39,558 bases of DNA from Diplocarpon mali (Eukaryota > Ascomycota > Leotiomycetes > Helotiales > Drepanopezizaceae). The stretch is taken from contig JAENRP010000204.1 of NCBI GenBank assembly GCA_024741835.1, forward strand, positions 37,523-77,080, given 5' to 3'. The notes below the pieces were generated by a model. It did not search any database. It was not told the DNA's origin and worked only from the letters and a program-made list of their open reading frames with translations. A program made the translations under genes and the position numbers. Shown here one piece after another: positions 1-26,640 of this stretch (its first letter is position 1; each line of letters opens with the position of its first letter).

Positions 1-23
1 CCTATAGGCCGGGCCTAGGAGTT
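1..23. repeat. Dispersed palindrome copy, cut by window start
   Basis: Right arm GGCCTAGGAGT is intact and the left arm loses its first base at the window edge. It lies just beyond the likely TGA stop of P1, so it is probably non-coding. The rest of 24-98 is AT-rich with nothing recognisable. Confidence 0.7.
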
Positions 24-402
24 AGAAAACGAAACTAGTAAAATAAATAAATAGGCTATAAAATCGCAAAAACAATTAAAATAGAACCAACCTAAGTATC
101 AGTTTTCCTTAATTCTCTTTAGGAAATAAGGAGAACTATCGCCAGATAATACTCTCTTTGCCAAACGACTACTTCTTCTTAATAGTTCGCTATTAGTATT
201 AGAAGAGTCCGGTCTTAGTATTATAAGAGCTTTAGTATTTCGTAAAGATACTAGTATAGTTTGACGGCTTCTGCTAATAGGGAGGGAGACTTGTGTCGCG
301 GCGTTATTGTTATCATCCTCCAGAGAGTCATCTGCTACTAAGGGGGACGCGGCAGGAGATTCCACGGCTACGACTTCCTTAGCCTTACCTTTCTCTAGAT
401 TA

Positions 403-426
403 AGTCGCGGGCCGGGCCTAGGAGTT
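403..426 (-). repeat. Dispersed palindrome copy in P1
   Basis: Read in the P1 frame as T-P-R-P-G-P-R-L, just upstream of the stop-free C-terminal tail. Confidence 0.85.
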
Positions 427-1224
427 ATATCAAGGGTTTTTACATAAGGCTTTTTAGTACTATACTTCTTAAGAAGAATTGTCTTATCAATTATATTATT
501 AGCCTTAATGTTATTATTAGTGCCTTTTATCTTAGCCTAGGATTTATCGCTATATAACTATAGTTCTAGTTATTGCACTAGCTTTTAAGTATTAGTAAAA
601 TTATTAAAAAGTTCTTACTTATATTTCTTTAGATATATTATCAATTGTGCTATATCCTTTGAAAACAACTCCTTTATAGCTATTACTATTAATAGGTTAT
701 TCTATAATCTTCTACCTATAAGGGCCTTTGATAATGGACCGCCTTTCGTTATCCTAAGGGTTGTATGGAACTTTGCAGAAGATTCTCCTACCGCACCCTA
801 TCTTGCTATACTTAGTCTCTTTATACTAAGTAAATTAATAAGAAAATCTTTTAGGTTAGTGCTATTCTTAAGTAAATTATTATTAATAACTTCTATATAG
901 TTATTGCTAATAGTTAAAAAACCGCCCTTTTCAGATTCCTATTCTAAATCGAGATTAATAAATATACCTTATCTTATGAATACTAAGAATAGAGTAGTAT
1001 CGTTTGAAACGTATTCCTTTAAGACAATTTTCTCCTTAGTATTTAGCTCTTTTTATTATATAGTGCTCTGTATTAGATTTAATAAGATCTATTAAGAGTT
1101 CTTAAGATAATAGGGTATAAGTGTAAATGACTTATAAGACTTTTCTTATATAGTAAATTCTCTAATCGATTGTTTTATAATAGGAATTATATAATAGTTA
1201 ATAGTTCTATTATTAAGGGAGTTG

Positions 1225-1248
1225 ACTTGCGAGCCGGGCCTAGGAGTC
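1225..1248 (-). repeat. Dispersed palindrome copy in P1
   Basis: Read in the P1 frame as T-P-R-P-G-S-Q-V-N-S. The right arm (plus-strand GGCCTAGGAGT) is perfect. Confidence 0.85.
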
Positions 1249-2454
1249 GATTTAATAAATCGCAAGTTGGCGTCAATCTTAATAGTAATAATTCTCGAAT
1301 AGTAGTTAATACTTATAAATTATATAGGCTTAGGATATATTACCAACTTATATAAAGACTTATAATAAGTTAATAGCGCATTAAGATATAGCTTATAGTG
1401 CATTCTTAAAGTCTATTGTATTAAGCTATACGTTATATTATAGAGAAATGCGGAGGGAGGCGAAAGTTTTTTATCGGAATTCCGAAAATGATGCTAATAT
1501 ATTTCCAATTCCTTTTATACTAATATTAAAAATGAATTCTTTTTATAATAGCTAAGGCCATATATGCGCATAGCGCTTAAAAAGGCATAGCTAAGCAGCT
1601 TAGGCATATTTAAGAAGCCTTTACTATAAAGCGATATTAAGGTATTATTAATTAGTATAATCTTATATTAAGCGGGGGTTTAAGTAATATTATAGAATAA
1701 TTTAAAGGCCTTAGGTGCCACTTGGAACTTAGAGAAACCTAACGATATATCTTTCTTAACCTAATTGGCCATTTTATTACTAATAGCCACAATTGCATAG
1801 TTTTTAAAGTATAATAAGAATAGTTTTAGATCAGGAGTAGTGCAAAATTTATAGATATTAGATGATACCTCTTTATTAGTAATGCCTATTGATACTAGTC
1901 TATAATATAATGCATATTATCGTTTATAAAGGGTATAAAATTTCTTAAAATGGAAGTCTTTAAATATCCCTATTATAAATTTACTTAGGCAAGTCTTCAT
2001 TTCTAATATCACTATAACTTTGAATCTGTTACTATACTGCAATATTATCTTAACGTTAAAGGGGACTTGATAACATTCTATAGAGATTATTATCGTAGTA
2101 TCTTTAGGCTTCTCCTTAAGTATATAGTAGTCGCCCTTTGATTTCTTATAGTTAATAAAGAACTGTATAATATTATCTAAGGTGAATTCGTCTTATTGCA
2201 GTTTTATGATCTATTTAACGGCTCTTGCTATTGCCTCTTATACTAATAAAATATCTCCTTGGTTTTCCTTTTTCAAATGCTTTATTATAGACTTATAGAA
2301 TTTTAGAATAAACTTTTGCAAATCTTTAGGAAAGGTCTATATAATATCAGATGTATCCTTTTTAATATTATTAAAAATTTCTAATACATTAGTAATAGGG
2401 CTATCCACTTTATCTATTAGCTTATCTTCTAAGTCTATATTATCATATATTCTA

Positions 2455-2478
2455 ACCCGTAGGCCAGGCCCGCGAGCC
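2455..2478 (-). repeat. Dispersed palindrome copy specific to P1
   Basis: Read in the P1 frame as A-R-G-P-G-L-R-V. No copy was found at the matching place in P2, so this one was probably gained after the two diverged, or lost from P2. Confidence 0.8.
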
Positions 2479-2640
2479 AATTTCTTTGCTACTAGTATAT
2501 AAGGTATTCTAGGCATTTCTAAAGACGGTAATTCAAACACATCTAAGTCTAATGCTTTAAGGTTATAATAGTTAGCAGTTTATATTTCTAGTATTATAGG
2601 TACCTTATACTTATAGACTTCTTTATTATATACTAATTCT

Positions 2641-2664
2641 ACCTATAGGCCGGGCCTGCGAGTC
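2641..2664 (-). repeat. Dispersed palindrome copy in P1
   Basis: Read in the P1 frame as T-R-R-P-G-L-stop-V, the stop being a mutated CAG. A PALK-like stretch precedes it in both P1 and P2, which suggests a shared ancestral insertion. Confidence 0.85.
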
Positions 2665-3600
2665 AAATCGCGCTCGTCTATTGATCCTACCGCAGGTAGT
2701 AGTAGCTTTAAGGCGGCAGGTATAACAAATTCCTATCTTTCTATTTTATTATTAAAGTAGTTTATAGTATACTTAATAAGATAGATCATCTTTTCTTTTG
2801 TAATAAGTAGACTATATTATAACTATTATAAGCTGAGGGTGTTTAAAATTGTCTAATCAAGAAGGGCCAGATTATTATACTACGCTGGATCGTCTTTTAT
2901 AGTCTGAATGGTAGAGTGTATAATAGTACTTAAAAACCTAATAAATTTTCTACCTCTTATATTATTGCCTTAGAGTTTCTTTATGCCTTTTTAAATAGTG
3001 AAATGATTTAATACCTATATAGCCTTTGCCACTAGTTAGTATATCTTAAAAATCTTGCCTAGTCCTCGTAGGGCGTTATTAGCGGTAATATCAGTTATAA
3101 AGTAGGTTTGGAAGAGGGTGCTATAAGTGCTACCTATAAACTGTAGCAATCTTTTCATACCCTTATTCTTTTTATCTCAGTTTCTTTAAAACAAATCCAC
3201 TAATATAAAGTAACCTTAATACTTTTGTAAAAACTTTTCATAATTAATTCCTTTAACCTTAAGCTCTCCCTTAAGAAAATCATCAAAGCCTAGGAACCCC
3301 TCCTTAATAGTAGAAATTCTATAGTTTAATACTTTAATAAAGGAATTCAAGAATACTTATTATTCTATTTCACCTAACGTTCTATAGGTGGTTATAACGT
3401 CTTCTAATGATCGAAGAGACTTCTCGTCCTATGAAAAACCACCTTCCAATATTAGTTCGTTATTAGGAGTGCTTAGGGATTTGCTACCCGAGGCAATAAC
3501 CGTTATGCTCTTCTTAGGTATGGCTTTCTTAGATAAGTTCAAAGGCGCTATAGTGAATCAGCTTATTAAGAAACGTAGAGTTAAACGAGTAGATGATTAT

Positions 3601-4112
3601 TAGGAAAGATTAATCGATATAGGAGGCTTTTATTAGAAAAGATTGATAATAGAAGGATAATAGTAGTAGTGCTGGTATTATAGGTCTAGTGGGGTTATAG
3701 AAAAAAGTAAAAAAAAGTTAAATTATAGTGCGAGGAGAGGCTTATTTATAGAGTTTGGAATCGCGCTAGTGCATAAAGGAAAAGTAGGTATAAAGAGGCT
3801 GGAAGTAGGAACAAAAGTAGGATATGACGCATATAAGGACCTATAATTAGTAAATAATAATTATTAAAGGTAAGGACGATATTTCAAAGGTAAGCATTAG
3901 AAAGTTGTATATAAAGGGAATAATCAAAGAATAAATTATATAAAGAGTAAAGTAAATAAAGAATATATATAGAATAGAATAATAGGTTAAGAATAAAGAG
4001 GTGCAAGTATATAGAAAGTAGATAATCTTAAAAAAAATTCAATATCTAATTTGCAATCTCTCTAAATGGTTTTTAAAAGAGGGTAGACTATAATTCTCTA
4101 GATTAAGTCGAC
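3601..4112. other. AT-rich spacer between P2 and P1
   Basis: The plus strand is rich in A and G (many AAAG, AAGG and AGTAA runs). No coding frame, LTR end or structured repeat was found. It lies between the end of P2 and the start of P1 and may hold the mutated P1 promoter, but no promoter element can be shown. Confidence 0.4.
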
Positions 4113-4290
4113 TCAATTGTTAGTTCTATTATCACTTTAGAATCTTCTTCTCTTATATTAGTTCTTATTTTTCGGCGATTTCTTAGCTTTAAGGACCTCT
4201 TTTAAAGGATCTTCTATTAGTACCCTTAGATTTAGTAACTAAGGTTCATCTGGACCATCTTATAGGCTTAAGCCAGCTAAGTCTAACCTT

Positions 4291-4314
4291 ACTCGTAGGC
4301 TAGGCTTGCGAATC
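4291..4314 (-). repeat. Dispersed palindrome copy in P2
   Basis: Read in the P2 frame as I-R-K-P-S-L-R-V-R; the first Thr codon is changed (ACT to ATT). Confidence 0.8.
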
Positions 4315-5175
4315 AGTCTTGGCGTTTCTAAGCTTAAGGGTAAAAACAGGAGATTGGTTCCTAAATTAGGGTCTAATATTATGCTAGCGTTTCAATTTGT
4401 CTCTTTTCTAAATTTTCTTATAATAATGCCTTTATTAATTAATATATTAGGCTCTTGGATAGCATTTACTTTATTATATTATCCTTAAGACTTAAGTCTA
4501 TAAAGAAGCGACTTAGTATTTATAACGTTCGTCTAGGCCTTAATAAGGGCGTTAAAGAGTTTTTAATTATATTCTGCAAAGTGGATTTTCAATTTATCCT
4601 TATTAAGAAGGAATAACTCCTATACTTTAGTTATAATAGAAGGATCCGTTTAAGAGCGCCGACTAATAATAGCTTTAAAGAGGCTGCCGCAGTTCTTAAG
4701 ATGAAAAGCTGCTTTAAAAGGTGCAGTAGTTCTACTTATATTAATCTATTAAGGCATTAGAGGTTGCTTTAAAGTAAAGATTAAAAAGATAAGATCGGAG
4801 ATTTAAGTTTTATTTTCTAAGGTATTTTTATTGCAAATGGCTATATAATTATTATAAAAGGCTATAAAGCCTCTAATTCTACAAAGTTTATTTAAGCGCA
4901 TTTCAAAAAGGTGCCCTTATTTTATTATTACTATAATAGGATTACTATTATTAGTAATAGGCCGTAAGATCTCTTTTTGCTTCATTTTTATAATTATACA
5001 AGCTAGTTGAGATTTTAAGCCAAGTGCTTAAAAAGTCTATCGACTTATCTTCTTTATAGATAGAGTGAGTTTTATATTTGATTAAAAGCCGACTTACCTA
5101 TTAAGGCTTTTAAAAGCTGGCCTTTATCCGATTAATAGGATCTAATAATCTAAGACTTACTTTTTAATAAAATTG

Positions 5176-5199
5176 ACTCGCGGGCCAGGCTTATAAGTG
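5176..5199 (-). repeat. Dispersed palindrome copy in P2
   Basis: Read in the P2 frame as T-Y-K-P-G-P-R-V-N. The flank carries the longer AATTG outer arm on the plus strand. Confidence 0.8.
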
Positions 5200-6561: not shown

Positions 6562-6585
6562 ACTCTTAGTCTAGGACTGCGAGTT
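6562..6585 (-). repeat. Dispersed palindrome copy in P2
   Basis: Read in the downstream P2 phase as T-R-S-P-R-L-R-V. It follows the single frameshift in P2 and a PALK stretch shared with P1. Confidence 0.8.
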
Positions 6586-7429
6586 AAATTATATAGTTTA
6601 GCACTTATTATATCTTTAAGCTAAAAGGCGAATTTTAAGGCAGGCTTAATTATAAATAACCAATTCTCTTCTTTATTATTAAAGAAATCTTATTTAAACC
6701 CTAGTATAAAAGTCTAGTTTTTTTTAAAATAAGCAAACTATAAGCAGAAGCGCAGAGCCTTAGTATATTAATAATAGTACTATTAGGTAGGGTAATATCT
6801 ATAGCTTAATTTGATCTTTTTATAGCTCTATTAGCTACTATAAGTACTATATTAGATAGGCCTATAAATCTGCAACTGCGAATTCGATTGCCTTAGAATT
6901 TTACTACTCCTTCTTAAATAATAAAGAAATTGAGAATCTAAATAGCTTTAGCTATAAAAGTGTTTTCTTTAAGAATATTTAATAATACTTGCCTTCTATT
7001 ATTAGAATTAATATTTATTAGGAAATATAAATAAAATAAGAATCCTCTCTTATTAGTAGCTAAATTATCTAATTATTAAATAGATTCTTCCCTTTTATCT
7101 TAATCTATTTTAAAAGTGTTAGCCAAGGTTATATATTGATTTGCATCAGCTAAGAATTCCTCTTTAGAGATTCCCTTTAGTTTTAATTCTTTAATTAAAA
7201 AGTCGTCAAATTAGAGAATTCCAAAGGCTACTTAAGTTAAAAGGTTACTAATAGCATTTGCGTAAGCTAAAAGGAGTTTTTATTACTTTATATCTCTTAA
7301 GGCTATATAGGTCGATTTGAAGTTCTTTAACGATACAATGGCTCTACTATCCTAAGAGAAGTTTATAACTAGTGTTTATTCATCTCCTATTTCAATAGGC
7401 AAAACTATTTATAAGTTCTTTAAAGGCAT

Positions 7430-7859: not shown

Positions 7860-10800
7860 ATTATAGTCTTTATCTAAGGGTTTAAAGTTGCTTATATTAC
7901 CGTTAGTTCTTATAGAAGATTCGGAAGTTGTATTAATTTCTGATTTATCTTCTAAAGGGAATAAGGTCTAATCGCGTTAATAAAAGCGCTTTAGTCAGTT
8001 AGCTATAAAGGTTCCTTTAATATCGATTCTATTAAGTTCCTAAAGAGAATAGTATCCCTTTTCTTTCTATTTAGATTTAACCTTAAATAGACTAAGCTAT
8101 TAATAGTTAAGTTTAGTATCTACTAATATATTAATACTTCTTATAATATTATAAACTAGGATAAGATCATCTTTTTAAATAGGGTGCGTTTTAAGTACTT
8201 TAAAAGTAGCCTATACTTCTTTAGCTTTTTCCTTATATTATTTCTTTTATAAAATGATTTCCTTTATATCTATATCTTAAAGCTTAAGTTATTAGTATCT
8301 TATTACTAGCAAATCGGAACGGTTTTGAATTTGACTATAGTCGAATAATCTCTAAATAGGCTATTAGGATTTAAAAGGGAGCTATGCCTTTCTACTATAG
8401 ATAAGGAAAAATAGTATAACTCTAGTCGGTTTATAGATTGTCATTTAATAAGTAAAGAGTATTTTATAAAAGTGTTTTATCTAATTCTTAAATCCTCTAT
8501 AGGTAACTTTAGATAGCCTATTAAGAATATCGCAATATCCTTGCTTTACTATTCTATTAGCTTTCGAATTATACACTAAGATTTAAACCTATTTGATATT
8601 ATATTTTTATAAAAAAGCTTTAACTACTCCTTTATTTTTAAAGCCTCTATTAATAGTTAGTCTGCTAAAAAGTCTATAGCGATAGACTATATCTTTTTAA
8701 AGGAACTTTATAATAGATTTAAAGTTAGTAGATCTTAATAGTTATCCTTTAAGCTATCTTAATAGGTCTTCCTTTATTAGAATAAAATATATAATCTTAT
8801 TTTCGGTTATTAGTACTTATATAATATCAAGACTGACTTTATAGAAAAGGCCTAATGGCTAGGTTAAGAATAGGGGATTCTCTTTATAATTAGGTTTTCG
8901 TTTCTAATAAGGGATACAACTTTTTATAAAAGCTTTATAGTCCTTAAAAGAACCCTTTTAAAAGAATTTTCTTAAGAGTCAGTAGTAAGTGGACTCAGCC
9001 CCTTAATGGCCAGTCTCTTTATAAATATCTTAAATAGCCTTAGCTCGCAGTTTATTATTATCCAAATAGAGCTATATAGGAAATGAGTTATCGCTCCTTT
9101 TAAATAATCGTCTTCTTTATACTAGATAAATCAGAGCTTTAGCTTTGAATTTCTAAAAATCCTTAAGAGCAACTGTCTTTAATTATTTAAGTATAATTAA
9201 AAATTTCGCGATTTCTTTAAAGTCACTTAAGTAATCAAGTAATAAAATTCTCTTATTTGACTCATAGGCTAGGCTCGCAAGTCGAGTCCCTTTAAGGCAA
9301 TATATTAATAAATAACCAACTTCGTTCTCTACCTACTTATTAATATTTATTTTATCTTCTTTAATTAAATCAAAGGGGTAGGGGCGAGTTCTTTTTAAAA
9401 GGCCGTTTGCGGCAGTATTTTTCATTCTTAGAATATATTTGACTTTAAAGTCTATCAGTCTTATCTAAGTAATCCATTTTATTAGCAAGGCTTTAAATAG
9501 GTTACTTATAGCTCTATTTAGTTATTTTACTAGCACTTTAGCATCAGTTTCAAAGATGAAGTAAATGCTATATAAATCGCTTCTTATCTTTTTCATTGCT
9601 TTTAAGGCTCTTTTGCATTCTTATTTAATAGTATTATACTTTATCTCTACTAGATTCCAAAGACTACTTTTAAAGTAAGCTAAATGTCTTTTCTATTAGC
9701 TATCAGCTTATTAAAGGATAGCACCCTATCCGATTAAGCTTGCATCAACTATTAGTATAATTAGCCTAGCATTAGATCTATAGTCTATTTTAATCAAATA
9801 TAGCGCCTTAAGTAACGCTTGCTTCAGTTGTTTTATAGCCTCTATTTAGGATTCCTCCTATTAAAACTCAGCCCTTTTCCGAAATAAGGAGTAAATAGGT
9901 GCTGCCTTTTTAGCGAAATCCTTGATCTAAATGCGATAATATACTATAATACTAATAAATGCGCAAGCTTTTGCTATATTATTATACCTCTTCTATTTGT
10001 CGATTTTAAGTACTTTAGCCCTTTAAGGACTTTGGCTATTAGAATTAGTAATAAAACTAATAATTTCTATTAATAGAAGATAATATTATAACTTCGGACC
10101 AACTATTGCTCCTACCCTTTTAAATTATATAAGCACCTAATCTAGGTTTTGAATATATTCTATTATAAATCGCTATATACTAAAGAGAACTTCTTTATAA
10201 TTATAGAATGATCTTAATCCTTTTACTCTTATATTATCTATATAAGGGAGCGCAATATTAGGTATATAATCTACTAGTATCTTATAGATTACTTAAACAA
10301 ATTAAGCGATCGAATTTATAGCCCTTTAAAGTAATCTTATTATCCGAAGTAGCTTAAGAGGGGTTTGAATTACTATTATATCTCTTGATTTAATATTAAG
10401 AATAAATTGGTCATATTTAAAGAAGAAGTTAATAAGAGAGCTATAGGTTAATCCTGCGAATTTATTTAAGAACTCATTTATATTTAAAGGAACGTTAGCA
10501 TCTTTAATAGTTACTCAATTCATCTCTACTACTACTATTATTAGTCTATAAGTTCCCTTCTCTTTCTTAGCAATTAGAAACTATTTGTTCTTATAAGGGC
10601 TATTACAGAACTTAAGAACACCTTGCTTTAGCCTATCCTTTAATATTTCGATTACCTTTTCTTAAAGAGCTTTAGGGACTTTGAATGTTTTCTCTTACTA
10701 GGCTTCGTAAGGTATTGTTTTAATCTTAATATAAAGTGTAACCTCTTCTTGAATCTGGCCAAGTTCTATTTAGTTAAAAGCTAAGGCGTCCTTTCGATTT

Positions 10801-11022: not shown

Positions 11023-11027
11023 AATCT
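11023..11027. repeat. Target-site duplication AATCT, left side of Copia-2
   Basis: It matches 22,673-22,677 exactly and fixes the outer limits of Copia-2. Confidence 0.9.
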
Positions 11028-11222
11028 TATTGAGCTTAAGTGAGTCGGCGCAGTAGGTATAGGAAACTTCTAGAGGTTGATGGTCGATATATTAGTAAGA
11101 GTTAGGGAAGGAAGGTTACCCTCTTCTTTCCTATAGCTATATATATATTAATATCCTACTAATTAAGTAGTAGGGTTATATGATAATACATTAGAGTGAT
11201 AGCTATATTACCTATCTTAATA
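11028..11222 (-). repeat. 3' LTR of Copia-2
   Basis: About 195 bp, ending internally at a mutated CTTAATA for CTCAACA. It aligns end to end with 22,479-22,672. Confidence 0.9.
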
Positions 11223-11231: not shown

Positions 11232-11522
11232 AGACCTTATTCTAATTGACCTGCAATTAGGAAAATAATAACTATCCTTTTGCGCTAATCTAACTCTTAA
11301 GTATCTCTTTAAATTAAAAATAATTAATTAATAGTAACCTCTATTAAAATCACCAATCTTACTTATAAGGCGGGACTAAGAGTTAAATTTCCAAAAGCGT
11401 TCCTTTATAAGACTATATGACTTAACTCGCAGTCTAAGCCTAGGAGTCGATCTAAAAACTTTCCTTTATAAGACTATATGACTTAACTCGCAAGGCAGGC
11501 CTAGGAGTCGTCCTTAAGCCTA
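11232..11522 (-). other. 3' untranslated part of Copia-2 with palindrome repeats
   Basis: No protein is read here after the pol stop at 11,523-11,525. Its main content is three palindrome copies, two of them within a 61-bp direct repeat. Confidence 0.6.
11361..11510. repeat. Three palindrome copies with a 61-bp tandem repeat
   Basis: Palindrome copies lie at 11361-11384, 11425-11448 and 11486-11509. The last two belong to a 61-bp direct repeat whose units start at 11402 and 11463 with CCTTTATAAGACTATATGAC, so the palindrome was amplified together with about 37 bp of flank. The copies lie past the stop codon and need no reading frame. Confidence 0.8.
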
Positions 11523-14500
11523 TTAAGCCCCTACTATCTTCTGCAACCCTAGTATATCTTTAAACGCTTTAAATTTTATAACCGTCTTTAGTAGCTTTAT
11601 AAATCTATTTGCTACTATTCGATCGGTTAAGATATAGGTAATCGATAACTTATTCTTTATAATAAGGTCGCAGATAAAGTAGTAGGTAATATTAATATAT
11701 TTCGATCACTTATATAAGTATAGATTCTTTATAAGTGCAATCGCCTTTATATTATCTACTTAAAGATTAATATAGTTCCTATCTTATCTAATATACTTAG
11801 TGAAACCTATATCTTTTAAAACTTAAGCGATCTATAATCCTTACTTGCAATTTAATAATATTAATATATATTCGGCTTTAGTACTTGCAGTAGCTACTGA
11901 TTTCTACTTCCTACTTCCTTATAATATAGGTCTACTATATAGTATTATTACGCTTTTAGATATACTTTTCCGACCCTTTATATTTGCCTAGTTGGAATCG
12001 GTATATACCTTAAGCTTTGCGCTTATATATTTTATTAGTCTATATCTCACCTTTTATATAATTATTAATCAAAGGTATCTTTTAAATCGCTTGACTGCGT
12101 TCTTATATTAAATCGTCAGATCCTTTAAGTTCTGATTAAGTTACTTAATAATAAAGGCAATATCTGGTCTTATATATACTATAGTATATATAATCACTTT
12201 AATATTCTATTAGTACTTCTTTAGATCTCCTTTTTACTCATTTTCATTAGTAGGCTCTAACTTATTATACTTTCCTTTAATTGGAGTACGCTTTGGCTTA
12301 AAGTTAGGAGTATAAGCGGAGAGTCCTATTCGATCTAGGATCTTCTTAATATACTACTCTTAATCCAACTAGAGTTCTTAAGTAGAGCGGTTCCTTATAA
12401 CGCAAATGCTGAGGATCTTATAAATTCCCCTTAGATCCTTAGTATTAAAACGTTTCCGAATTATTATAAAGAACCAATCTAATTAAATAGTTGTTTTCGC
12501 AGCTGTAGCAATATTGTCGATATATAATAGTAACTTGATTTTACGCTTAATATAAGTAAATAGATAAGGGTTAGCTAGGCTTTAAACGAATCCCATTTCC
12601 ACTAGAGCAAAGCTATATAAGAGGTTCTAATTATAAGCTGATTATTTAAGCCTATAGATACTGCAAAATATATAAAGAGAGTGGCTAGCGCGTATAAGAA
12701 TACTATTAGGTTAAGAGAGAAAAATCTATTCCTTTATAATTGCTTTAGTAAATATATTTTTAATATTATACTATTTGCATTTAAGGTCTTTAGCAGCTAC
12801 TATTACTATAAATATGCAAAGGGTATCTATACGAACTATTAGCGCAAATATATTAAAGTAGTCTTCTTTATACTATTAGGAGAAGCCCTTAGCTATAAGC
12901 CTTACTTTATAATACTCTAGGGTTCCATTTGCATATATCTTAATTATAAAGACCTACTTTGTTAATACTAGGTTCATATCTTCTGGTATCGGTTCTTCTA
13001 TTTATATACCATTTGTAATAAAAGAGCTTATCTTCTCTTAGATTGCTTCGCTTTATACTACTTTATTCTTTAAATTGTTAATAGCTTTATTATATATTTT
13101 TAAAAGAGAGATTTTCATTATCCCTTTAGCGGCTAGGAACGCATTATCTTTATTAAAGCTCTATTAAAGTTCGAGCTTATAGATCCTATATGCTATTATA
13201 GCTTAGATACACTTAAACTCGCGTTCGTCTAAGGTATCTTTCGATTCTAGGTCTCTATTCCTCTTTAAAGACGTAGGTTCGGCTGTGGGTTCTATAAGCT
13301 TATTATCTAAGGAACCGCTTTCTAATAGTAGAGGCTTATTATTACTTATACCTATTTTAGGAATATCCTTTACTATAGGTGCTTTAACTAAAGGGATAAC
13401 GATATTAAAGTTGTTCTATACTTTAAATAGTTCGCAAATAATAGGAATAGTCTATTCGGCCTTTAGGCGACTAATAGGTCATCGATTAGCAGGTACGCTT
13501 AATATACCTAAGCTAAAAGAAAGGGGTTATTAGTTCGGCTTAATAGTATTACTATTAAGTAGTATACCTTGCGAATCTCTAAGTATATAGAGCTTTAAGG
13601 ATAGCTCCCCCCTATTTCGAGATTTATTAAACTTAATTACTAAGGATATAATTATTTGCCTTAGGTCTAGCGTATATACTATCTATTGCTTTATTATCTA
13701 TTTAATATACCTAATAAATATATACTCTCTACCTCGGTCTATTAGCTTCTTACTCTTTATACCCGCGGGCTAGGACTTTAGGCTAATATAAGAGTAGCAA
13801 ATACTTCTAAAGACGCAGATATAGTCTAAGCTTAGTTTCTATCTAAAATATAGCTTATATAGCGATATTCGGGTGCTATTAACTATTAGTCTACTACCTA
13901 TTCTATTTTGTAAGTATATATCTACTTTAACCGCAAGGTCTTAGAATTCTAATAATAGGTTAGCATCTTATAATAGAGCGCGATAGTCAGTCTTTACTTA
14001 CTAAATGCTTCGCTTAGCGATACCATTTTAATAGGAACCTTTATATATTACAATTAGCTTATAATAAACTCCTTATTTTACCTATTTATTAAGCTTTGCC
14101 CTAATCTTTAATATATTATTAGACCTAATAGCTATTAGCTTTAACTAAGTCTAGTATTCTTCTATTACTTTCTAAGTTTCCAACTTTTCTATAAGCTTAG
14201 ATTTAGTCCTAGCGCAAATGGTCTATATCTATTAAGTAGAGTTATCTACTATTTAAAAAAACCAATTATTTCCTTTAATTAAGGTTATAAATAGTTTAGT
14301 AGTATTAATAGATATTAGCGCTAGTATCAAATCTTTCTATAAACTAAGCTTAATTCGCATCCGATTTCGAAGTTTTATTAGCTTGCAAATTCGGCATACT
14401 AAGCGATCCTTTAGTACTTAGATCTTCTATTTTAAAGTTAAGACCTTATATAGGCCTTTCAATTTCTTTAGCCTTAGATGCGCAAATCTTTTATATATTA

Positions 14501-14619: not shown

Positions 14620-14994
14620 GATTGCAAGCCCGGCTTAAGAGTCGATTCTAACGAATTTGCGAATTTCACTCGCAGTCTTAAATTAAGAGTTATTTCTATA
14701 AATTTCACTTGCGATCCTAGCTTAAGAGTCGTTATTAGCGAATCTATAGAATCTACTCGCAGTCCTAGCCTAGGAGTCATTTCTATTAAATTCACTTATA
14801 ATCCTAGCTTAAGAGTCATCTTTAAGGATACCTTATAATCTACTTATAGTCCTAGCTTAAGAGTTATTTTCGCGAATTTCACTTACAATCCTAGCTTAAG
14901 AGTCCATTTATTCTCCTTATCCTTGCTTAATTGTATTAAAGTAAAAAGTGCACTTTCCTTAAAGGAATCCACTTATAGGTCTGGCCTAAAAGTC
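14620..14994 (-). repeat. Eight-copy palindrome array inside Copia-2 pol
   Basis: Copies start at 14620, 14668, 14707, 14755, 14794, 14842, 14881 and 14971. The first seven are spaced 48, 39, 48, 39, 48, 39 nt: alternating long (24-nt) and short (15-nt) spacers, a composite 87-nt (29-codon) unit repeated three times; the last gap (90 nt) looks like a unit with a lost middle copy. Short spacers resemble each other (ATTTCTATAAATTTC type). All copies are in one phase on the minus strand, that of the pol frame, giving T-x-x-L-G-L-x-V peptides. The opposite strand is also open over 14,608-14,838 because the unit is palindromic. Confidence 0.9.
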
Positions 14995-15200: not shown

Positions 15201-15432
15201 TGTTGCAGGTATGCCCGTCATATATTTGTCATATGATCAACACATAATATGTCATATGACTTGCCACATGACTTAGCGGCTTCGCTAAGAAGCCCGCTTA
15301 CCTTAAGTAGCTTGTAGTTAGAGAGCTCTTATGAATAAAGATACTTAATATCGTCGTTTGCACCTTATACTTCTTTATGCCCTCTCTTCTAGTTTACTAT
15401 TAAGTTCACTATCTGAGAACCTCCTTACTATA
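15201..15432 (+). repeat. 5' LTR of Copia-1
   Basis: 232 bp, TGTTGCAGGTATGCC to CTATA (mutated CTACA). The promoter should lie here, but no TATA box can be told from the AT-rich background. Confidence 0.95.
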
Positions 15433-15445
15433 GGTTATAAGCCCC
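15433..15445 (+). other. Primer-binding site, half initiator tRNA-Met type
   Basis: GGTTATAAGCCCC directly follows the LTR. It complements the anticodon arm of initiator tRNA-Met (GGGCTCATAACC) with one G-to-A change. This is the priming mode known for Drosophila copia, which uses the 5' half of the cut tRNA. Confidence 0.75.
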
Positions 15446-16889: not shown

Positions 16890-16913
16890 ACTTGCGAGCT
16901 GGGCCTAGGAGTT
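16890..16913 (+). repeat. Dispersed palindrome copy, Copia-1 gag-protease linker
   Basis: Read in the gag-pol frame as T-C-E-L-G-L-G-V-N-S. The GC-type arm is on the left. Confidence 0.9.
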
Positions 16914-16943
16914 AATTCCGACTCCTCCTTAGGGCCAATTTCC

Positions 16944-16967
16944 ACTCGCAGGCTAGGCCTAAGAGTC
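16944..16967 (+). repeat. Dispersed palindrome copy, Copia-1 gag-protease linker
   Basis: Read as T-R-R-L-G-L-R-V-S-S, 54 nt (18 codons) after the previous copy. Both copies share a GGGCCAATT flank, so the pair may be a local duplication. Confidence 0.9.
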
Positions 16968-18377: not shown

Positions 18378-18401
18378 ACTCCTAGTCTAGGACCGCGAGT
18401 C
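18378..18401 (+). repeat. Dispersed palindrome copy, Copia-1 integrase-RT linker, opposite orientation
   Basis: The GC-type arm is on the right, so this copy is inverted relative to 16,890, yet the same phase gives T-P-S-L-G-P-R-V-N-S. Outer arms AATT...AATT extend the palindrome to about 32 nt. Confidence 0.9.
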
Positions 18402-18422
18402 AATTCTCACTCTTACGATTTC

Positions 18423-18446
18423 ACTCTTAGGCCAGGACCAGGAGTC
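18423..18446 (+). repeat. Dispersed palindrome copy, Copia-1 integrase-RT linker
   Basis: Read as T-L-R-P-G-P-G-V-N-S, 45 nt (15 codons) after the previous copy. Confidence 0.9.
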
Positions 18447-20238
18447 AATTCTGATTTAGGAAAAGTTGAGCTTTTAACTTTAAAAAAGAGAGGAAGACCT
18501 CCTGGTTCAAAGAATAAGGCTTACCCTCAGCCTTTTGAGAAGAGAGCTACTCGCTTAACTTATGCTCTTGGATTTAAAGCTAATAACTATAATAATAAGG
18601 AAGCCTATTTAGGCGCCTTCTATATGGCCTTACTTGACTCTCTATACTTAAATGACCTGAAAACAGTCGAATAAGCCCTCTCTTGCGCTAATGCTGATAA
18701 ATGGCAATCTGCGATCAACTCTAAGTATAATTCCCTCGCTTATAAGAATATATAGGTGGTGGTGAAACGCTTAGAACTCTTTAAAGACGATAGAGTACTT
18801 AGATTGAGACTTGTCTTTAAAACCAAAAGAGATTAAAATAGGGAAATCTCCTAATAGAAGGTCAGATTCGTTATATAAGGCTATATGCAACGATAAGGTC
18901 GAGATTATAACTAGACTTTTGCTAGAGTATGCAAATCTGCGGTTTGGAAGATCGCACTTGCGCTTATAGCGCTATACGACTTTGAGCTAGATTAGTTCGA
19001 TATTAAGATAGCTTTCCTTAATTCAAAAGCTGACTCTAATATCTATATCAAGTTACCTCTTAGATATACTTAAGATAAGGTCGTTCTTTTACCTTAAGAC
19101 CACTATCTTAAGCTTCTTAAGGCCTTATATAGCTTAAAGCAATCTCTACGACTATAGTAAGAAAAGCTACGGTCTGAGCTATAAAAGCTCGATTTTCAAC
19201 CTTTTAATACTAATAATTGCGTATATATCAACCGCGCCTCTCGGATTCTTATCGTTACCTATGTCGACGACTTCCTTATGGTAGCTAAGAAGGGTGATAT
19301 ATATAATAAGTTTAAGAGAGATCTTTGCAACCTTTTCGAAATTATAGGTAGCGAACTAGCTAACTACTTCTTAGGAGTATATATAGTTAGAGATTAATAA
19401 AATAGAACGATCTTACTTTATTAAAACGCCTATATTGATAAGGTTCTTAAACGTTTTTATATAACTAATTATAAGAGCGTACTAACGCCTTTTGCTAGTA
19501 GCTATAAAGTTCATATGGTCAAATTTGAAGGCTAAGCCACTTTATAGGAAGTGAAGCTATACTAAGAGATCTGTGGTTCTTTATAGTACCTTGCGCACTA
19601 TACGCATTAGGATATACTATACTATTGCTCTATTCTTAGTAAATTCCTTACTAACCCTTTGCTATAATATATAGTAGCTTTAAAATGAGTTTTATAGTAC
19701 TTGCAAGGAACGCGATTCTATTATACTACCTTTGGAAGTAAAACAATTGACCTAGAGCTTTAGAAATTGTATAGCTACTGCGATTCTGATTAAGTAGGTA
19801 ATAGAGGAAGTAGAGCCTCCTATTCTAGGGCCGTCTTCTTCCTTAATAATAGCGTAATTACCGCTTCCTTTAAGCGATAAACTATTATCGCTCTCTTATC
19901 TATAGAGGTAGAGTACGTCGCTATATGCAAATTTGCATAAGAGGCCTCTTAGATATGCTAAGTACTTAAGGAAATGGGCTACGCTAGCGATGACGCTATT
20001 AAAGTCAAGATGATTTGCGATAACTAGAGAGCCCTTTATCTTATTGAAAACCCCGAATATCATTAGAGAACGAAGTATATCGATATCAAGTTCTATTATA
20101 TTCGGCAAGAACTTCGGAAAGGCCATTTGGACCTCTAGTATACGAATACTAAAGACAATGCCGCCGACGGCCTTACTAAGAGCTTAAATAGCTTTAACTA
20201 CGCCGCCTTTATTAAATTGTTAAATATGAAGGTTTTAT

Positions 20239-20322: not shown

Positions 20323-20346
20323 ACTCCTAGGCTGGGCCTGCGAGTT
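20323..20346 (+). repeat. Dispersed palindrome copy, Copia-1 3' untranslated part
   Basis: Well preserved copy, CT-type arm on the left. It is non-coding if the stop at 20,247 is native. The rest, 20347-20513, is AT-rich with nothing recognisable. Confidence 0.85.
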
Positions 20347-20513
20347 GATTTTGACTTACTAAGGGGTGGATTTCCTACTTTAAAGTAAAGCGCGCTAGCG
20401 AACTCTACTCTATTTCTAATATCTATAGGTTGATTTTTCATACGAAACTGTAAAATACAATAAAAGTTATAACGTTATATATGTTACTAGCGAGTACCTT
20501 TAAAGGTCTCCCT

Positions 20514-20522
20514 AGAGGGGTG
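20514..20522 (+). other. Polypurine tract of Copia-1
   Basis: AGAGGGGTG directly before the 3' LTR, the expected plus-strand primer. Confidence 0.8.
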
Positions 20523-20754
20523 TGTTGCAGGTATGCCTGTTATATATTTATCATATGATTAATATATAATATATTATATGACTTGCCATATGACTTAGCG
20601 GCTTCGCTAAGAAGCCCGCTTACCTTAAGTAGCTCGTAGTTAAAGAGCTCTTATGAATAAAGACACTCAATATCGTCGTTTGCACCTTATACTTCTTTGT
20701 GCCCTCTCTTCTAGTTTACTATCAAGTTCACTATCTGAGAACCTCCTTGCTACA
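20523..20754 (+). repeat. 3' LTR of Copia-1
   Basis: 232 bp, keeping the native end CTACA. RIP changes are spread over both LTRs: this copy is more mutated in its first third, while the 5' LTR is more mutated in the rest. Confidence 0.95.
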
Positions 20755-20759
20755 GAAAC
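20755..20759. repeat. Target-site duplication GAAAC, right side of Copia-1
   Basis: Identical to 15,196-15,200. Confidence 0.95.
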
Positions 20760-22105
20760 GCTAGTAATATTCATCTCTACTATACTTATTAAGTTTATAT
20801 ACAACCTTCTACTACTAACCTTAATAGAGTGCCTTTTTATTTTAATAAGCGGGCCTTTAAATAGGTAGGATTTATTAATTATATATACTATACAATTAGT
20901 ATTACTATACTAGTCGGATTTAAGGATCTTATAAAGATCGGCTTTTAAGATATAGGCATCTTTATTATAATTATTATTTAAATTATTAAAAGTGGATTTA
21001 GGTTTAGATAACCTACTATTATTATTAGAGGTATCTGCTAAAGTTTTAATTAAATAGCCTTTTCCTTTGCCTTTCCTTAATAGGTGCGGCCTTTAGTAAG
21101 ATAAAGGCAATTTGCTTTTTAACTTCTGCTTCAATTGCTTTTTAATATTAAAGCTAGCGACTATATTGATTAATTGCCTTTTAACTTTACAATTAGTAAT
21201 ATTATAAGCACTATTATAAAAGTAGCATCCCTAATAAGCTTAAGGGCTTATCCTACGCTCCTTCCTCTTCTTAGGCTTATCGTTACCCTATAATGCAGCA
21301 TTTGCCGATTTAAAGCATCCTTTAAAGTCTTACTTAATAGTTTAAAGGAGGTCGATCTTCTTATAAATCTTAAGGTTAGGTTAAATAAGAAGAGATTGTT
21401 TTGCAATAGCGAACTTAAGAGAGAGGCTATTAAGTAGGAAATTAAAAAGCTAAGTTTCCTTAAAAGTTATAACTATCTTAAGATCTACGGCTCTTACTCT
21501 CCTCCTTGCTTTATATAGTATAGACTAAGTAAAGTCTATATTTATATCTATATCCTTACTATCTTTATCTTTTTTATACTAAAATAAAGTGATCTACTAT
21601 AGTAAATGCTAAGTATTAAAGGCAGTTGTTTAAGAGTATTTTACCTTTAAGGTATCCTATCTTATCTTTATATTATTATAAACTTGAATAAAATCTCGAT
21701 CTTTGTCGCTTAAACCTCTATTAATCTTAAGCTTACATTTGGCTAAGGCTAGCCTATACTCCTTCTCCTTTTCTATATTCAAAATCTGCCTTTAGGATTC
21801 TCAATTATTATCTATTAAAGCTCTTAAGCTAAGCTTATTTAATATATTTAGCAAATCCTTAGCAGTTATATTAGCTATTAAAGTAGAAGTAGACGAATCG
21901 GTAGAAGGAGTATAGAAGGCTATTCTTATATATTTAATAAGTGTCTTTTAAATCGCCATTTCGATACCTTTGCTCTTAAAGTAAAGTTCTAAATCGTCGA
22001 ACTATCGTTACCAGTTCTTTTAAAAGAGTTAGAGGTCTTTAAGTCTAGTATTTCGATTAGAATCGGAAGCTATTGCCGTTTCGAATCGAATTGCATTAAA
22101 ATCAA
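20755..22105 (-). pseudogene. Copia-2 gag and protease
   Basis: Minus strand. Gag opens near 22,100 (FNAIRFETAIASDSNRNTRL, then FDDLELYFKSKGIEMAI), like gag of the UBN2 type common in Copia elements. A zinc-knuckle remnant reads CYFYNSAYNITNC (about 21,220-21,185): a CX2CX3HX4C pattern with the second Cys and the His both now Tyr, each a single RIP-type change. The protease follows at about 20,920: YSNTNCIVYIINKSYLFKG, where the catalytic DTG reads NTN, again G-to-A changes. Reading then passes through the GAAAC duplication into the part at 15,195 and below. The gag start codon is not determined. Confidence 0.8.
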
Positions 22106-22466
22106 ATAAATTAAATAGTTAAAAGCACTCCTCCTATCGAAAAGTTGAAATGATTAAATAGCGGTATTATAAAAGTATTAAATAGGGAGGAAGTCCTCTT
22201 ATTAAAAAGGATTTTTAAGCTATAACGCAGGGAATTATACCTCTTACGAAATATAGTAAAGTAAGGAATCATACCTCTTATAGTACTAAAGGGGTTATAA
22301 AGCAAGGAATCATACCTCTTATAATATAAGTTGGCTAAATAGGGAATTACACCTCCTACTCGCCGATTGCTTGCCTCTTACTACAAGTCTCGTTCAACTT
22401 CTTACTAATAGTTATAGCGCAAGTGCTTTCCAAGGGAAGTTAATAATCTATTATTAGTCTATCTAA
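22106..22466 (-). repeat. Copia-2 leader with a four-fold short repeat
   Basis: Between primer-binding site and gag. The plus-strand motif GGAATCATACCTCTTA (or GGAATTATACCTCTTA) starts at 22231, 22265 and 22306, with a fourth weaker copy at 22343 and a possible fifth near 22188; spacings are 34, 41 and 37 nt. It may be a regulatory or packaging repeat of the element; only the repetition is seen. Confidence 0.65.
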
Positions 22467-22478
22467 GGCTTATAACCT
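22467..22478 (-). other. Primer-binding site of Copia-2, half initiator tRNA-Met type
   Basis: The minus strand reads GGTTATAAGCCT directly after the 5' LTR, the same start as in Copia-1, complementary to the anticodon arm of initiator tRNA-Met apart from a G-to-A change. Confidence 0.75.
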
Positions 22479-22672
22479 ATTAAGCTTAAGTAAGTTGGCG
22501 CAATAGGTATAAGAAACTTCTAAAGGTCGATAGTCGATATATTAATAAGAGTTAAGGAAGGAAGGTTACCCCTTTCTTCCCTATAGCTATATACGTATCA
22601 ATATCCTACTAATTAAGCAATAGGGTCATATGATAATATATCAGAGTGATGGCTGTATCACCCATCTCAACA
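22479..22672 (-). repeat. 5' LTR of Copia-2
   Basis: Keeps the native end CTCAACA on the plus strand (TGTTGAG on the coding strand) and is followed by AATCT at 22,673-22,677. Confidence 0.9.
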
Positions 22673-22677
22673 AATCT
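22673..22677. repeat. Target-site duplication AATCT, right side of Copia-2
   Basis: Identical to 11,023-11,027. Confidence 0.9.
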
Positions 22678-22875
22678 ACTAGTTGTACTTTATCGGCCTT
22701 GCTTTTATATATAATTTGAATATTAGCTAGTACTATACTTCTTTACTTCTTTCCTTTTTTATTAAATCTTATAAAACGGTCCGAATTTTCTTTTTTAAAA
22801 ATAAATAAAAGATTTTCTAAGTTGTTAATTTGAAGTGCATAAATGGAAATGTTATTAGTAATTTTATTGTTTTTC

Positions 22876-22899
22876 ACTTGCGGGTCCGGCTTATAAGTG
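22876..22899 (-). repeat. Dispersed palindrome copy in Gypsy-1
   Basis: Read in the local frame as T-Y-K-P-D-P-Q-V-K-N. Confidence 0.8.
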
Positions 22900-23037
22900 G
22901 TTTTTAGGTTTTTTAAAATGATTAAGGAATTATTGAAATTTGTAAAACAAACTCTCTTTTCTACCTTATTTTTCTTTTTTCTTAATTATTAATCTAATAA
23001 AACGCTAATTGCACTATTTTTCAAAATTCCAGATTTG

Positions 23038-23061
23038 ACTCTTAGTTTAAGACTATAAGTT
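23038..23061 (-). repeat. Dispersed palindrome copy in Gypsy-1
   Basis: Strongly mutated copy, read in the same phase as the copy at 22,876 as T-Y-S-L-K-L-R-V-K-S. Confidence 0.7.
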
Positions 23062-24953
23062 AAATCGCTATTATTTAAAATCGGCAAACTTACCTTTCTT
23101 TTGCTATAACTCCTCGCTAGGTGCCTTCCTTTATTAGTATTAAGCTTAGCCCTTATGCTAGCTAATCGTTTCTTAAAACCTTATTTTAGAATTTAGCTAT
23201 ATCTCTTACGATAACCATTTGTCCTTTTAAAGATCGATCTATATTCTAAGGACTAGCTTTTATAAGACTATCTTTAGGATAGTTAAATATTAGCTAAGAT
23301 TTTAAAATAAAGGGCATTTTTAAAAGAATATCATTTGAAGAATTCTCTATTATTAGAAAGTCAGTATAATTAACGATTCCTTTAACTTTAACCTTTACGT
23401 TTTTTACCTATCTATTAAAATTGTATTTTAATCTAAAGACAGTTAAATAAATAAGAAGTCGATCGCTAATAATTATTAATTAAGCTATTTCTGCCACTTT
23501 TCTAGTTATTGTATTAACTTTTAAACTATAATTAATTAGAGCCTTTGCTTTAACTGATTCTTCTATAGAATAAATAATAATAGGGCTTTTTATTATAATT
23601 GCTAAATAATTTCAATTGATATTTTAAGATATTAAAGCTATTGCTATAATATTATAGTACTTCTAAATTCCTTTATCTTTTGCAATTTAAAGACATTTGA
23701 TTAAAGCTAGGTGCTTTTTAAAGTTCTTTTATATTACAATTTCCATTTCCTTATTATTATTCAAATCTTTAAAGGTAATTAGGATATGCTTTCTTAGCAC
23801 TTTGTTAAAGCGTTTAATTAAACCAAATAGGTCTTTAAATGTAAGGTTAATTTGCTAGGCTATGATATTCTCTATAGCTTTCTCTATTGCAATTAAATTA
23901 GTATATTTATTGATAAATTTTTCCTATTTTAATATCTGTCTCTTTCGCTTAAGATTAAGGGTTTGCGCAATAATTTCAACTTCTTAATCTTTAAGCTTAA
24001 AGCCATCTTTATCTATTATATCTTTAATCAATTCATCTATTATATTAGCTTTATCCTTATCTATTATAGTTCTAGATTATTAAGTATCTTTTAGCATTTG
24101 GATTCTATATTAAGATTCCTAAGTTGCACGCATTGATTTCTGGACTTTGGCTGGTTTTATTAGTATTAAGGGAGTAGTAGATCTAGAAGGATGCTAAGTA
24201 TTCTAAGGGTTTTTAGATATAGAAGTAGTATTAATATCAGCAGATACGTTATTATTAACCTACTTTAAAATAAAAATACCTCTGACTTTAATAGCAGTCT
24301 AGTTCGAAGTTTGGTTAGTAAGCACTCCTTTAAGTAGATTGCTAGCTAGATTTATATATATATAAGTTAGGACCTTAGAGTTGATTTCGATAATGCGCTT
24401 CTATTTAGCCAAATCCTTATCCTACTTTATACTATATATTATTATTTGAATAGTCTATAGCTATAAATAATTTTAGTGTTTTTTAATAAGGATAGCGTCT
24501 AGCCTAGGATCTCTAATGCAAAGCATCTTATACTTATTAATATATATAACCCTAGTATTAATAAAATGAAGGAAAAGAGGGCAATTATTACAATACTTAT
24601 ATAAAGCGTAGTTAGGTTCTTTATTATTGTAAAAGTTGCAAGTTAGTCGTCTTCTATTGCTATTTCCTTAATACCTTATAGTATTAATATTAGCAGAGTG
24701 CTAGTTAGGATCAATTCCTCCTTCTTTAGCTAGCTATTGCATTCTTATATTAGCTGGTTATTCCGAATGATAAGAAGCAGGAGTCTAGTAATAGGAACTA
24801 CTAAGTTAGCTTATAGTAGCTGAGTTTTATCTATTACCAAATTAGAGAATATGCTATTTTTCTTATAAGAGATTATTAATTCTAGTTTCTAAGCTTTAGA
24901 TCTAGAGTTTTGTAAATTAGGTCTTAAGTTCTTTAATTCTAAGGTTAGATCTT

Positions 24954-24977
24954 ACTCTTAAGTCGGGCCCGCGAGTG
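24954..24977 (-). repeat. Dispersed palindrome copy in Gypsy-1 gag
   Basis: Read in the gag frame as F-T-R-G-P-D-L-R-V-R-S. Confidence 0.85.
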
Positions 24978-25700
24978 AAAGGTATAACTATTAGGTTCTT
25001 CTTTGCCTCTTCTATAACTTCTAGTGCTTTCGAGTGTTCTTAGACCAGACTCTTAAGGTCTTTAGTATAAGAGGGAGTAGGGGCTTTTTCCTATTCTATA
25101 GTATTAATAGTTCTTTTACTAAGATCTGATTTTAAAGCAAAGGCCGAGAATTCCTTAAATAAGGCAAAGGTTATAAGGTCTTGCTTATTAATCTTAAAAT
25201 GCTTAATAATCTTATTTCAAAGGCTAATAGGTAATCTAAGTAAGAAAAGGCGGCCTCTTTTAACTTTGCTAAGTATTTTCTAATTAATTAAGGTATTTGA
25301 TATATAAGTAAAAGTCTAATAGTAGTTCTTAAGTTCCTTAGGAGTATAAGTGATTAAAATAAATTCCTTTAAAAAAGCTAGGGTATTACGAATCTACTAT
25401 CTATTAAATTCGCGGAATTCAGATTTAAGGACCTTAATAAGGAATTCCTATAAACTATAAGTTTTCCATTTAAGGAAGGACTTAATAATATCCTTACTTA
25501 TATGATTATAGTAGCAAGGAAGTCGAGAAATCATATCCTCTTATATAATACCAAAATTGTAATAAGTTTCCTTATATTACTTAAGGAAATTAGTAATATT
25601 AGTACTTATAAAGTAAGGAGCGCTAGGAGAATTAAGGAGGGGAAAGTGATTAGTAATAGCCTTAAATGCGGCTATTATTATTTTATACTAACTGTCTAAG

Positions 25701-26640
25701 TTAATAGAATCTATAAGAGGCAAAGGAGAAGCTTTAATATTGCGAGATTGATTGCTAAAAGGAGTACTTCGAAATTCAAAAGGGCTTAAAGAATATTTAA
25801 AATCTAAGTCAATCTTAAAGTGATTAGGACAAGTTTAAAAAGATTTAAATAAAGGGTTAGTAAAAAGTTTAAAATTGTTATTATTTTTAGTATTTTCTAA
25901 TATTAATATTAAAAAAGTAGGTAGTAGTCTTAAGTTATTTAAGGATATCTTTTTATCCTTCTACTTATAGGCTAAGCTTAAGAGTAGAATTCCGGATTCT
26001 GCTAAAAGTTTAATCCAAGTTTATTAAGAGATTCTAAATAGGTGCTAAATAGCTAATAAAAGTATTGCAATTAATCGTAATAAGATAAGTTTATTTAATT
26101 AAAGACTAATTTCTAAGATAAGGTTTGTATTTAAGATTCTTCTTAGCCTTTAGGCTAATTCCTATTAGTCCTTAGAATAAAGGGGTCTTTAAAGACGATT
26201 CTAAGGCAATTTTTAAAGTTCTATCTAGCTAAGACAGCTGAATTATTAAATTCGGATTTCTAAGGATTCTAAGGAGATACTTCTAATTAGAGTTTACGCT
26301 TAGTATTACTTAAGTACTCGAAACTACTGCTATTAGAGATTGCTATTATAAGGTTTGTTATACTTTTTATATTAGAAAGCCGAAAATTCCGAGAATCTTA
26401 GAGTTAAGGAAGAAAATAGGGGTTTTTAAAGTAGAGCTAAAAAGGGAAAATCTAAGGTTATTGATAATTGCTAAACGAAAATCGATAGTTTTAAGTAATT
26501 AGGCGATTGAGGATAAGGTTTTTAAAGTTGATTAAAATGCTATAAGTGTTTTAAAGATGTATTTTTTAAAAAGGCCAGTCTCTTATCTGCAAACTAAGAG
26601 ATCGATAAGGTTATATAGGGATGGAAATCTTAAGAAATCG
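25701..26640. other. AT-rich stretch, expected 5' end of Gypsy-1
   Basis: No LTR, PBS or coding frame was recognised. It holds the rightmost palindrome copy of the window at 25,973. Sequence here did not match 7,430-7,860 by eye. Confidence 0.35.
25973..25996 (-). repeat. Dispersed palindrome copy, last one in the window
   Basis: The usual phase gives T-L-K-L-S-L-stop-V on the minus strand. Whether it is coding is unknown because it lies before the recognisable start of Gypsy-1 gag. Confidence 0.65.

Follow-up and report, generated by a model that had tools for sequence, protein, structure and literature searches.

How a short palindrome comes to lie inside the proteins of several different retroelements, nearly always in the same reading phase, is the question raised by a 39,558-nucleotide stretch of the genome of the fungus Diplocarpon mali (assembly GCA_024741835.1, contig JAENRP010000204.1, positions 37,523 to 77,080 of the forward strand), here called the window. 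An earlier description made from the letters of this DNA (the sequence-only reading) had reported the palindrome and proposed that it is mobile and tolerated by proteins. We followed the unit through the window, through further loci of the same genome and through the whole assembly. The same unit recurs at about 18 positions without flank similarity across five families of retroelements, and after homology was used, 12 of 13 independent coding positions are in one phase.

The palindromic unit, its positions and its reading phase

In its less decayed form the palindrome core reads ACTC[G/C]CGG[G/T]CC-N-GG[A/C]CCG[G/C]GAGT. The core is 23 nucleotides (nt) long, weak conservation over six further bases on either side extends the unit to about 35 nt, and the palindrome is imperfect. 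A position profile, trained on copies with at most four mismatches and hence on copies that it then counts, found 203 copies in 258 kb, comprising the window and the fetched loci (L-numbers), and 0 copies in one order-3 Markov simulation of equal length. The loci were picked around unit copies or Copia matches, and unit density there is not a genome-wide density. Three forms of the pattern were counted in the 49.4-Mb assembly (676 contigs), giving up to 1078, 77 and 208 places, with 0 for the reversed controls. The first is the form given by the sequence-only reading (551 forward and 527 reverse places within two mismatches; 1078 is an upper figure, as a symmetric copy may count twice). Its arms are indeed repeated, but they represent a decayed state, and the CpG form, with 208 places within one mismatch, is the less decayed one. 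A TGG arm, considered as the undecayed form, had 3 exact places only, and the CpG form was adopted instead. At core positions 5-6 the dinucleotides on both strands are TA (225), CA (90), CG (78) and TG (13); if C-to-T and G-to-A changes are read as decay, the TAGG and CGCAGG arms would both derive from CGGG, and TAGG looks like a product of CpG decay.

Comparison of flanks sorted the copies into 23 clusters (S-numbers). Some clusters were then joined: S5 and S22 as well as S7 and S13 agree in flanks and family, the pairs S9/S15 and S17/S18 align with each other in two related protein modules, P1 and P2, and S6 was united with S12, some 20 residues away, as a cautious choice. This left the approximately 18 positions. 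All but one of these (22876 in the window) could be assigned to retroelements by their long terminal repeats (LTRs) or pol domains. Both orientations of the unit are used, and 68 of 117 arrays consist of a single unit. The 50 listed undecayed copies, grouped by subtype, fit known sites, the classes being too few to exclude copies in host genes; viral contigs had no exact match to the unit pattern.

Where a coding position could be placed relative to Pfam domains, which was done by hand, it proved to be a linker. In Copia-1 these linkers follow gag or separate SH3 from RVT_2; in the Gypsy element of locus L026 one precedes RVT_1 and another separates RNaseH from integrase. The earlier claim that the copies lie in linkers between domains thus holds wherever domains could be placed. 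Further coding positions are several in P1 and P2, an array in Copia-2, one in the upstream part of the L026 element and one in a non-autonomous element. Other positions are taken as non-coding. They are the 3' region of Copia-1 (a stop follows the end of pol in two of three copies compared), the neighbourhood of the Copia-2 3' LTR, three sites of the non-autonomous element (one at its 5' edge and a 3' pair), and a site that lies 76 bases beyond the likely stop of P1. These copies mark the unit as a DNA-level repeat and not only a peptide. No Pfam family matched over the units in the frames scanned, and a search of other proteins with the unit peptide gave nothing at E values up to 10.

Reading phase was determined from stop codons in the 300 nt on either side of the unit, the unit itself excluded, in all six frames. 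Phase 0 means that the unit begins with the codon ACT on the strand that is read; since a third codon position falls on the centre of the palindrome, this phase is the same from both strands. The elements are decayed, so the frames are inferred, and the calls for S3, S6 and S20 are weaker ones; the phase of S5 was settled through its variant S22 and that of S9 through homology to S15. The in-phase positions are S1, S2, S3, S5, S6/S12, S9/S15, S10, S11, S14, S16, S17/S18 and S20, and S19 (9260 in the window) is out of phase; S21 is taken as non-coding. Phase rotation gave a P value of 5e-6 when 17 clusters were used and of 3e-5 when the set was widened to 21 with non-coding ones, both sets containing homologous pairs. 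When each pair was represented by a single member (13 positions), P was 2e-5 or 6e-5 depending on the member chosen, and it was 1.3e-4 for the 11 positions left after the weak S3 and S20 had been removed. By the best frame alone, phase 0 was found in 11 and 10 of the 13 positions (two member choices) and in 9 of the 11.

The spacing of tandem copies follows a similar rule. All 75 spacings in coding arrays (five clusters) are multiples of three, and none of 11 in non-coding arrays (two clusters) is; copies inside a spacing cluster share descent. Coding periods are mostly 39-66 nt, and a unit encodes 8-12 residues rich in Gly and Pro. The phase-0 peptide, T-[R/P]-G-P-G-P-[R/G]-V, is nearly alike from both strands, and in the little-decayed copy L047 TPGPGPRV can be read at two places of a frame that contains a single stop.

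Copies in the window and the elements that carry them

The profile (score at least 8) found 27 copies in the window, and one more is truncated by its first base; the recurrence reported earlier stood, about 29 copies having been counted there. The phase rule held, with 21 of 22 coding copies in place of the 22 of 23 first given. Frames were taken from Pfam traces for the Gypsy and both Copia elements and from stop profiles elsewhere, and the phase of each copy was derived by hand from the scan coordinates; the window has no open reading frame (ORF) reaching 150 codons. In phase are all seven copies in P1 and P2, all eight in Copia-2 (14620-14971), all four in Copia-1, and those at 24954 and 22876. 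Six copies (1, 11361, 11425, 11486, 20323 and 25963) are taken as non-coding or as lying at the edge of an ORF.

P1 and P2 (99-7145, minus strand) are about 1000 residues long each and lie downstream of integrase, in a Gypsy-type stretch that also takes in 8000-10500. They are 27% identical over 837 columns (E 2e-67), and no Pfam family matched either. The P1 module (99..3176, minus), delimited by its frame, has units in phase at 403..425, 1225..1247, 2455..2477 and 2641..2663, and P2 has them at 5176..5198, 6562..6584 and, in its C-terminal part, 4291..4313, all on the minus strand. The 1225 and 2641 units align with those at 5176 and 6562, respectively, and the 2455 unit runs into an alignment gap of P2 that starts there. 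The phase of the 5176 unit is ambiguous by the stop profile alone and was taken from the homology to P1; the 4291 unit has a weaker frame call, with an in-frame TGA upstream (4392-4394). The truncated unit at 1..22 (minus) is 3' of the likely P1 stop (TGA, 99-101), is taken as non-coding and occupies the same site as L014:1074. Gypsy pol traces matching the RNaseH and integrase zinc domains in Pfam lie at 8889..9848 (minus), and between these domains is the unit at 9260..9282 (minus), the only coding copy out of phase, as the sequence-only reading had noted.

Same-strand pairs of these parts were compared on single contigs within 30 kb, among the 40 best matches per search and with the window excluded. 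The P1-to-pol distance was 6759-6801 in four of seven pairs (6800 in the window; the other three lie 14-28 kb apart), the P2-to-pol distance was 4001-4002 in five of nine (4001 in the window; the other four do not fit), and the P2-to-P1 distance was 2794-2808 in four of four (2799 in the window). Because this spacing recurs in several other contigs, we read P1, P2 and the Gypsy pol as probably one large Gypsy element, with later insertions in some copies. Hence, from the five carriers first named (P1, P2, Gypsy-1, Copia-1 and Copia-2), the two Copias were retained, the other three would be one element, and a non-autonomous LTR element was added.

Copia-1 (LTRs at 15201..15433 and 20523..20755, plus strand) is nested inside Copia-2 (3' LTR at 11028..11220 and 5' LTR at 22478..22670, minus strand, 87% identical). 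Copia-1 has units in phase, on the plus strand, 3' of the gag match (16890..16912 and 16944..16966) and in the SH3/RVT_2 linker (18378..18400 and 18423..18445), and a non-coding one between the end of pol and the 3' LTR (20323..20345). On the minus strand, Copia-2 has a non-coding array beside its 3' LTR (11361..11383, 11425..11447 and 11486..11508, with spacings of 64 and 61) and an array of eight units, all in phase, at 14620..14993 (starts 14620, 14668, 14707, 14755, 14794, 14842, 14881 and 14971). Its pol traces of SH3 and RVT_2 are at 12300..13841 (minus), and the profile scan found no unit in the linker between SH3 and the reverse transcriptase (RT) domain. The corresponding linker of Copia-1 also has a KRGRPPGSKN motif (18486-18515), which we take to be AT-hook-like and which has a similar form in several relatives. 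Copia-1, Copia-2, Gypsy, P1 and P2 (window 1-23000) lie on one codon grid, the low coordinate of each codon being divisible by 3; a single element may account for this in P1, P2 and Gypsy, and for the Copias it looks like coincidence.

The non-autonomous LTR element is 2.9 kb long in locus L011 (3499-6444) and 72% identical there to 24885-26817 of the window (24.9-26.8 kb). It has one ORF, and in L011 it carries four units (at the 5' edge, in the ORF and two 3'). The window copy has a unit at 24954..24976 (minus), in phase with the upstream side only, and another at the 5' edge of the ORF, taken as non-coding (25963..25985, minus). The unit at 22876..22898 (minus) is in phase by the stop profile only and is not assigned to a retroelement or a host protein. 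Outside the window, the L026 Gypsy has a weak chromodomain match below the Pfam cut-off, and in L028, its sister copy, two 256-nt repeats are separated by 6.9 kb. No unit copy was found by the profile in the window from 26.0 to 39.5 kb (13.5 kb, similarly AT-rich). Within this region is a direct repeat of 1375 nt (27571-28945 and 30463-31837, 94% identical, 2.9 kb apart), possibly a pair of long LTRs.

Origin and retention of the unit

The explanation we prefer, to which we give about even weight, is that a DNA-level palindrome repeat spread through LTR retroelements within a single fungal lineage, probably Diplocarpon, was retained in one coding phase, and was copied by template switching. 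The unit would have settled both in untranslated regions and in protein linkers of LTR elements, and of the copies in coding sequence hardly any but those in a single phase would have survived. With the centre base at a third codon position, either orientation would yield a tolerable Gly-Pro linker. Segments containing the palindrome may then have expanded in tandem through frame-keeping duplications, and amplification of the elements would have brought the number of copies to many hundreds. The putative copying step is template switching by reverse transcriptase, at the hairpin or the arms, between co-packaged element RNAs. In what was sampled, i.e., loci around unit copies or Copia matches, the copies are confined to retroelements, which suggests copying during retroelement replication. 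Arm third positions (ACT, CSC, CCG, SGA) are held, decay-type changes aside, which shows conservation of the DNA and not of the peptide alone. Together with the non-coding copies, these held synonymous positions lead us to infer that copies at unlike positions stem from the copying of one DNA unit and not from a peptide selected from scratch.

From the mobile, protein-tolerated palindrome proposed earlier, one DNA unit at unlike positions and in one phase could be retained; mobility could not, and several observations weigh against our explanation. In five genome searches with unit-spanning segments no clean empty site appeared, all 195 non-query matches keeping their length within about 8 bases; each search covered the 40 best of about 220-260 candidates, a biased sample in which a deletion would lower the rank and rarer empty copies could escape. 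Within the sampled families the units appear to be fixed, and the majority of the copies exist through multiplication of the retroelements. Neither target duplication nor covariation of the outer arms was found consistently (nominal signals in one of 36 tests, P 0.01, and in one of 12). P1 and P2, for all their divergence, have units in common at two positions that align, and a third pair is offset by about 20 residues; this may point to age or to repeated use of one place and not to recent mobility. Coding transversions are not clearly rarer in units (20/1518) than in flanks (94/5575; P 0.19). Judged by the stop profile alone, S5 and S9 come close to a tie with another phase ahead, and the 9260 unit stands outside the rule. 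A bolder form of our explanation, which we hold to be less likely than not, is a mobile coding palindrome in a nuclear eukaryotic genome, in which a 35-nt unit moves between unrelated LTR retroelements, probably in reverse transcription, and survives because its symmetry encodes the same harmless linker from either strand.

Several candidates were set aside on the way. One apparent empty site, in L020, proved to be a decayed unit, and another, from the comparison of L014 with L020, coincided with a Copia insertion. An origin of the arms as terminal repeats of some longer transposon was rejected, as single arms are not above background (12 lone arms outside units and 16 in the simulation, at a threshold of 12), and the terminal inverted repeats and target site duplication of miniature inverted-repeat transposable elements were not found for the unit. 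A hypermutable centre base was rejected (within families, centre changes are transitions in most clusters, and transversions also occur in two of eight, one of them mixed), as was inversion in situ.

The strongest rival, which we nevertheless consider unlikely, is a cis-acting signal that the LTR elements need, a hairpin in RNA or DNA that might act, e.g., in packaging, priming or transcription. It would have been kept for that function in untranslated regions, and its linker copies would be by-products or extra signals in a harmless phase. Copies are indeed seen on the 3' side of the coding part in four elements (Copia-1, Copia-2, the non-autonomous element and the large Gypsy), and one element has a copy 5' of the ORF, these positions being partly inferred. 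In non-coding clusters transversions are fewer in units than in flanks (10/836 vs. 103/3841, Fisher P 0.005), and folding of eight units as DNA gave two whose stability clearly exceeds that of shuffles (z about -3.5); the other six, however, ranged from -2.1 to -0.1. A single signal needs neither several coding positions per element nor tandem arrays. Moreover, eight of 34 Copia-1 relatives were aligned, and the six that cover the SH3-RT linker, Podosphaera aphanis and Rhynchosporium graminicola among them, have no unit in it by eye, a comparison that concerns linkers and not untranslated regions. This linker is too variable to show ends, so that of the proposed comparison with unit-free relatives the absence was found and the exact insertion ends were not.

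A selected peptide is improbable. According to this explanation T-x-G-P-G-P-x-V serves as a flexible linker or a polyprotein processing site, and the palindrome is a by-product of common descent. The linker location of all placeable positions and the nearly exclusive phase fit it, and many of the transversions in coding-cluster units fall at third positions of the central Gly codons. It is weakened by the non-coding copies, the held synonymous third positions of the arms, the use of both orientations and the unlike flanks. The ancestral conserved domain that the sequence-only reading had named as its refuter is likewise unlikely, because the six relatives lack the unit in the linker and copies occur in non-coding regions. 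A Copia-1 gag-linker piece from L030 matched three proteins at E up to 1, all annotated as Diplocarpon coronariae; the best two (77% and 74% identity) carry the same unit peptides, a likeness seen at the protein level only. Assemblies of D. coronariae are about 50-54 Mb, with approximately 34% repeats and 20% Copia (PMC11527701).

Coding minisatellites only, i.e., one ancestral linker repeat duplicated in tandem within a few elements, are very improbable. Between family copies there are 28 unit-bearing gaps, most commonly of 45 nt (10/28), and such unit-sized gaps are read as probable changes in tandem copy number. Positions without flank similarity and the many single units are, however, incompatible with this origin. 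Finally, the window is strongly depleted in CA (0.39 of expectation) and TG (0.43), indicating decay like that of repeat-induced point mutation, but an artefact of composition favouring GGCC and CTAGG words has a negligible probability, being refuted by the empty background in 258 kb, the reversed controls, the 208 places of the undecayed form and the unit-free 13.5 kb of the window.

Comparison with known palindromic repeats

In the open-access literature, by titles and abstracts and with most subscription papers outside the coverage, no nuclear fungal coding palindrome was found, and the word stem palindrom is absent from the available part of the D. rosae genome paper (PMC5628827). Repeats of this palindromic, protein-coding kind have been debated as selfish DNA from which new segments of proteins arise; the published cases found there are bacterial, archaeal or mitochondrial, or are PARCEL repeats. 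In D. mali many hundreds of copies, less and more decayed, occur side by side. In related fungal genomes they would allow direct tests of the phase rule, of how the unit inserts and of where protein linkers come from.

Rickettsia palindromic elements (RPEs) and Wolbachia palindromic elements are dispersed palindromic repeats inside ORFs that keep the frame and lie in exposed or unstructured protein parts; RPEs are 100-150 bp long and occur in bacterial genes including housekeeping ones (PMC3767692, PMC2996958). The fungal unit, too, is a dispersed family of palindromes that keeps the frame inside ORFs (12 of 13 positions), but it is 23-35 nt long and lies in fungal retroelements. The resemblance to RPEs suggested earlier is thus supported in behaviour (in-frame, dispersed, one sequence family), and the unit appears to work like them; we do not file it as a member, because it differs in length and host and no clean empty site was found among the best-ranked matches. 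PARCEL repeats are tandem, palindromic and protein-coding, belong in certain taxa to ORFs associated with mobile elements, are reported from eukaryotic microbes too, and form a 25-residue amphipathic repeat with a protein hidden Markov model (PMC2996958). Tandem, palindromic and coding in mobile-element ORFs as well, the unit differs in encoding 8-12 Gly-Pro-rich residues and no 25-residue amphipathic repeat.

In mitochondrial genes of nematomorphs, inverted repeats lie in functional coding sequence, and their pairing phase has been analysed (PMC6649704). Those repeats are long and perfect, and the long ones avoid pairing third positions with third positions, whereas the fungal unit pairs third with third and is one repeated sequence in retroelements. 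The GC-rich palindromes of fungal mitochondria are also short, GC-rich and fungal, but the unit is situated among the LTR elements of the assembly. REP and REPIN sequences are imperfect palindromes of 20-40 nt, present in hundreds of copies, mostly intergenic and moved by RAYT transposases. In size and copy number the fungal unit is similar to them, but it lies mainly inside the ORFs of retroelements.

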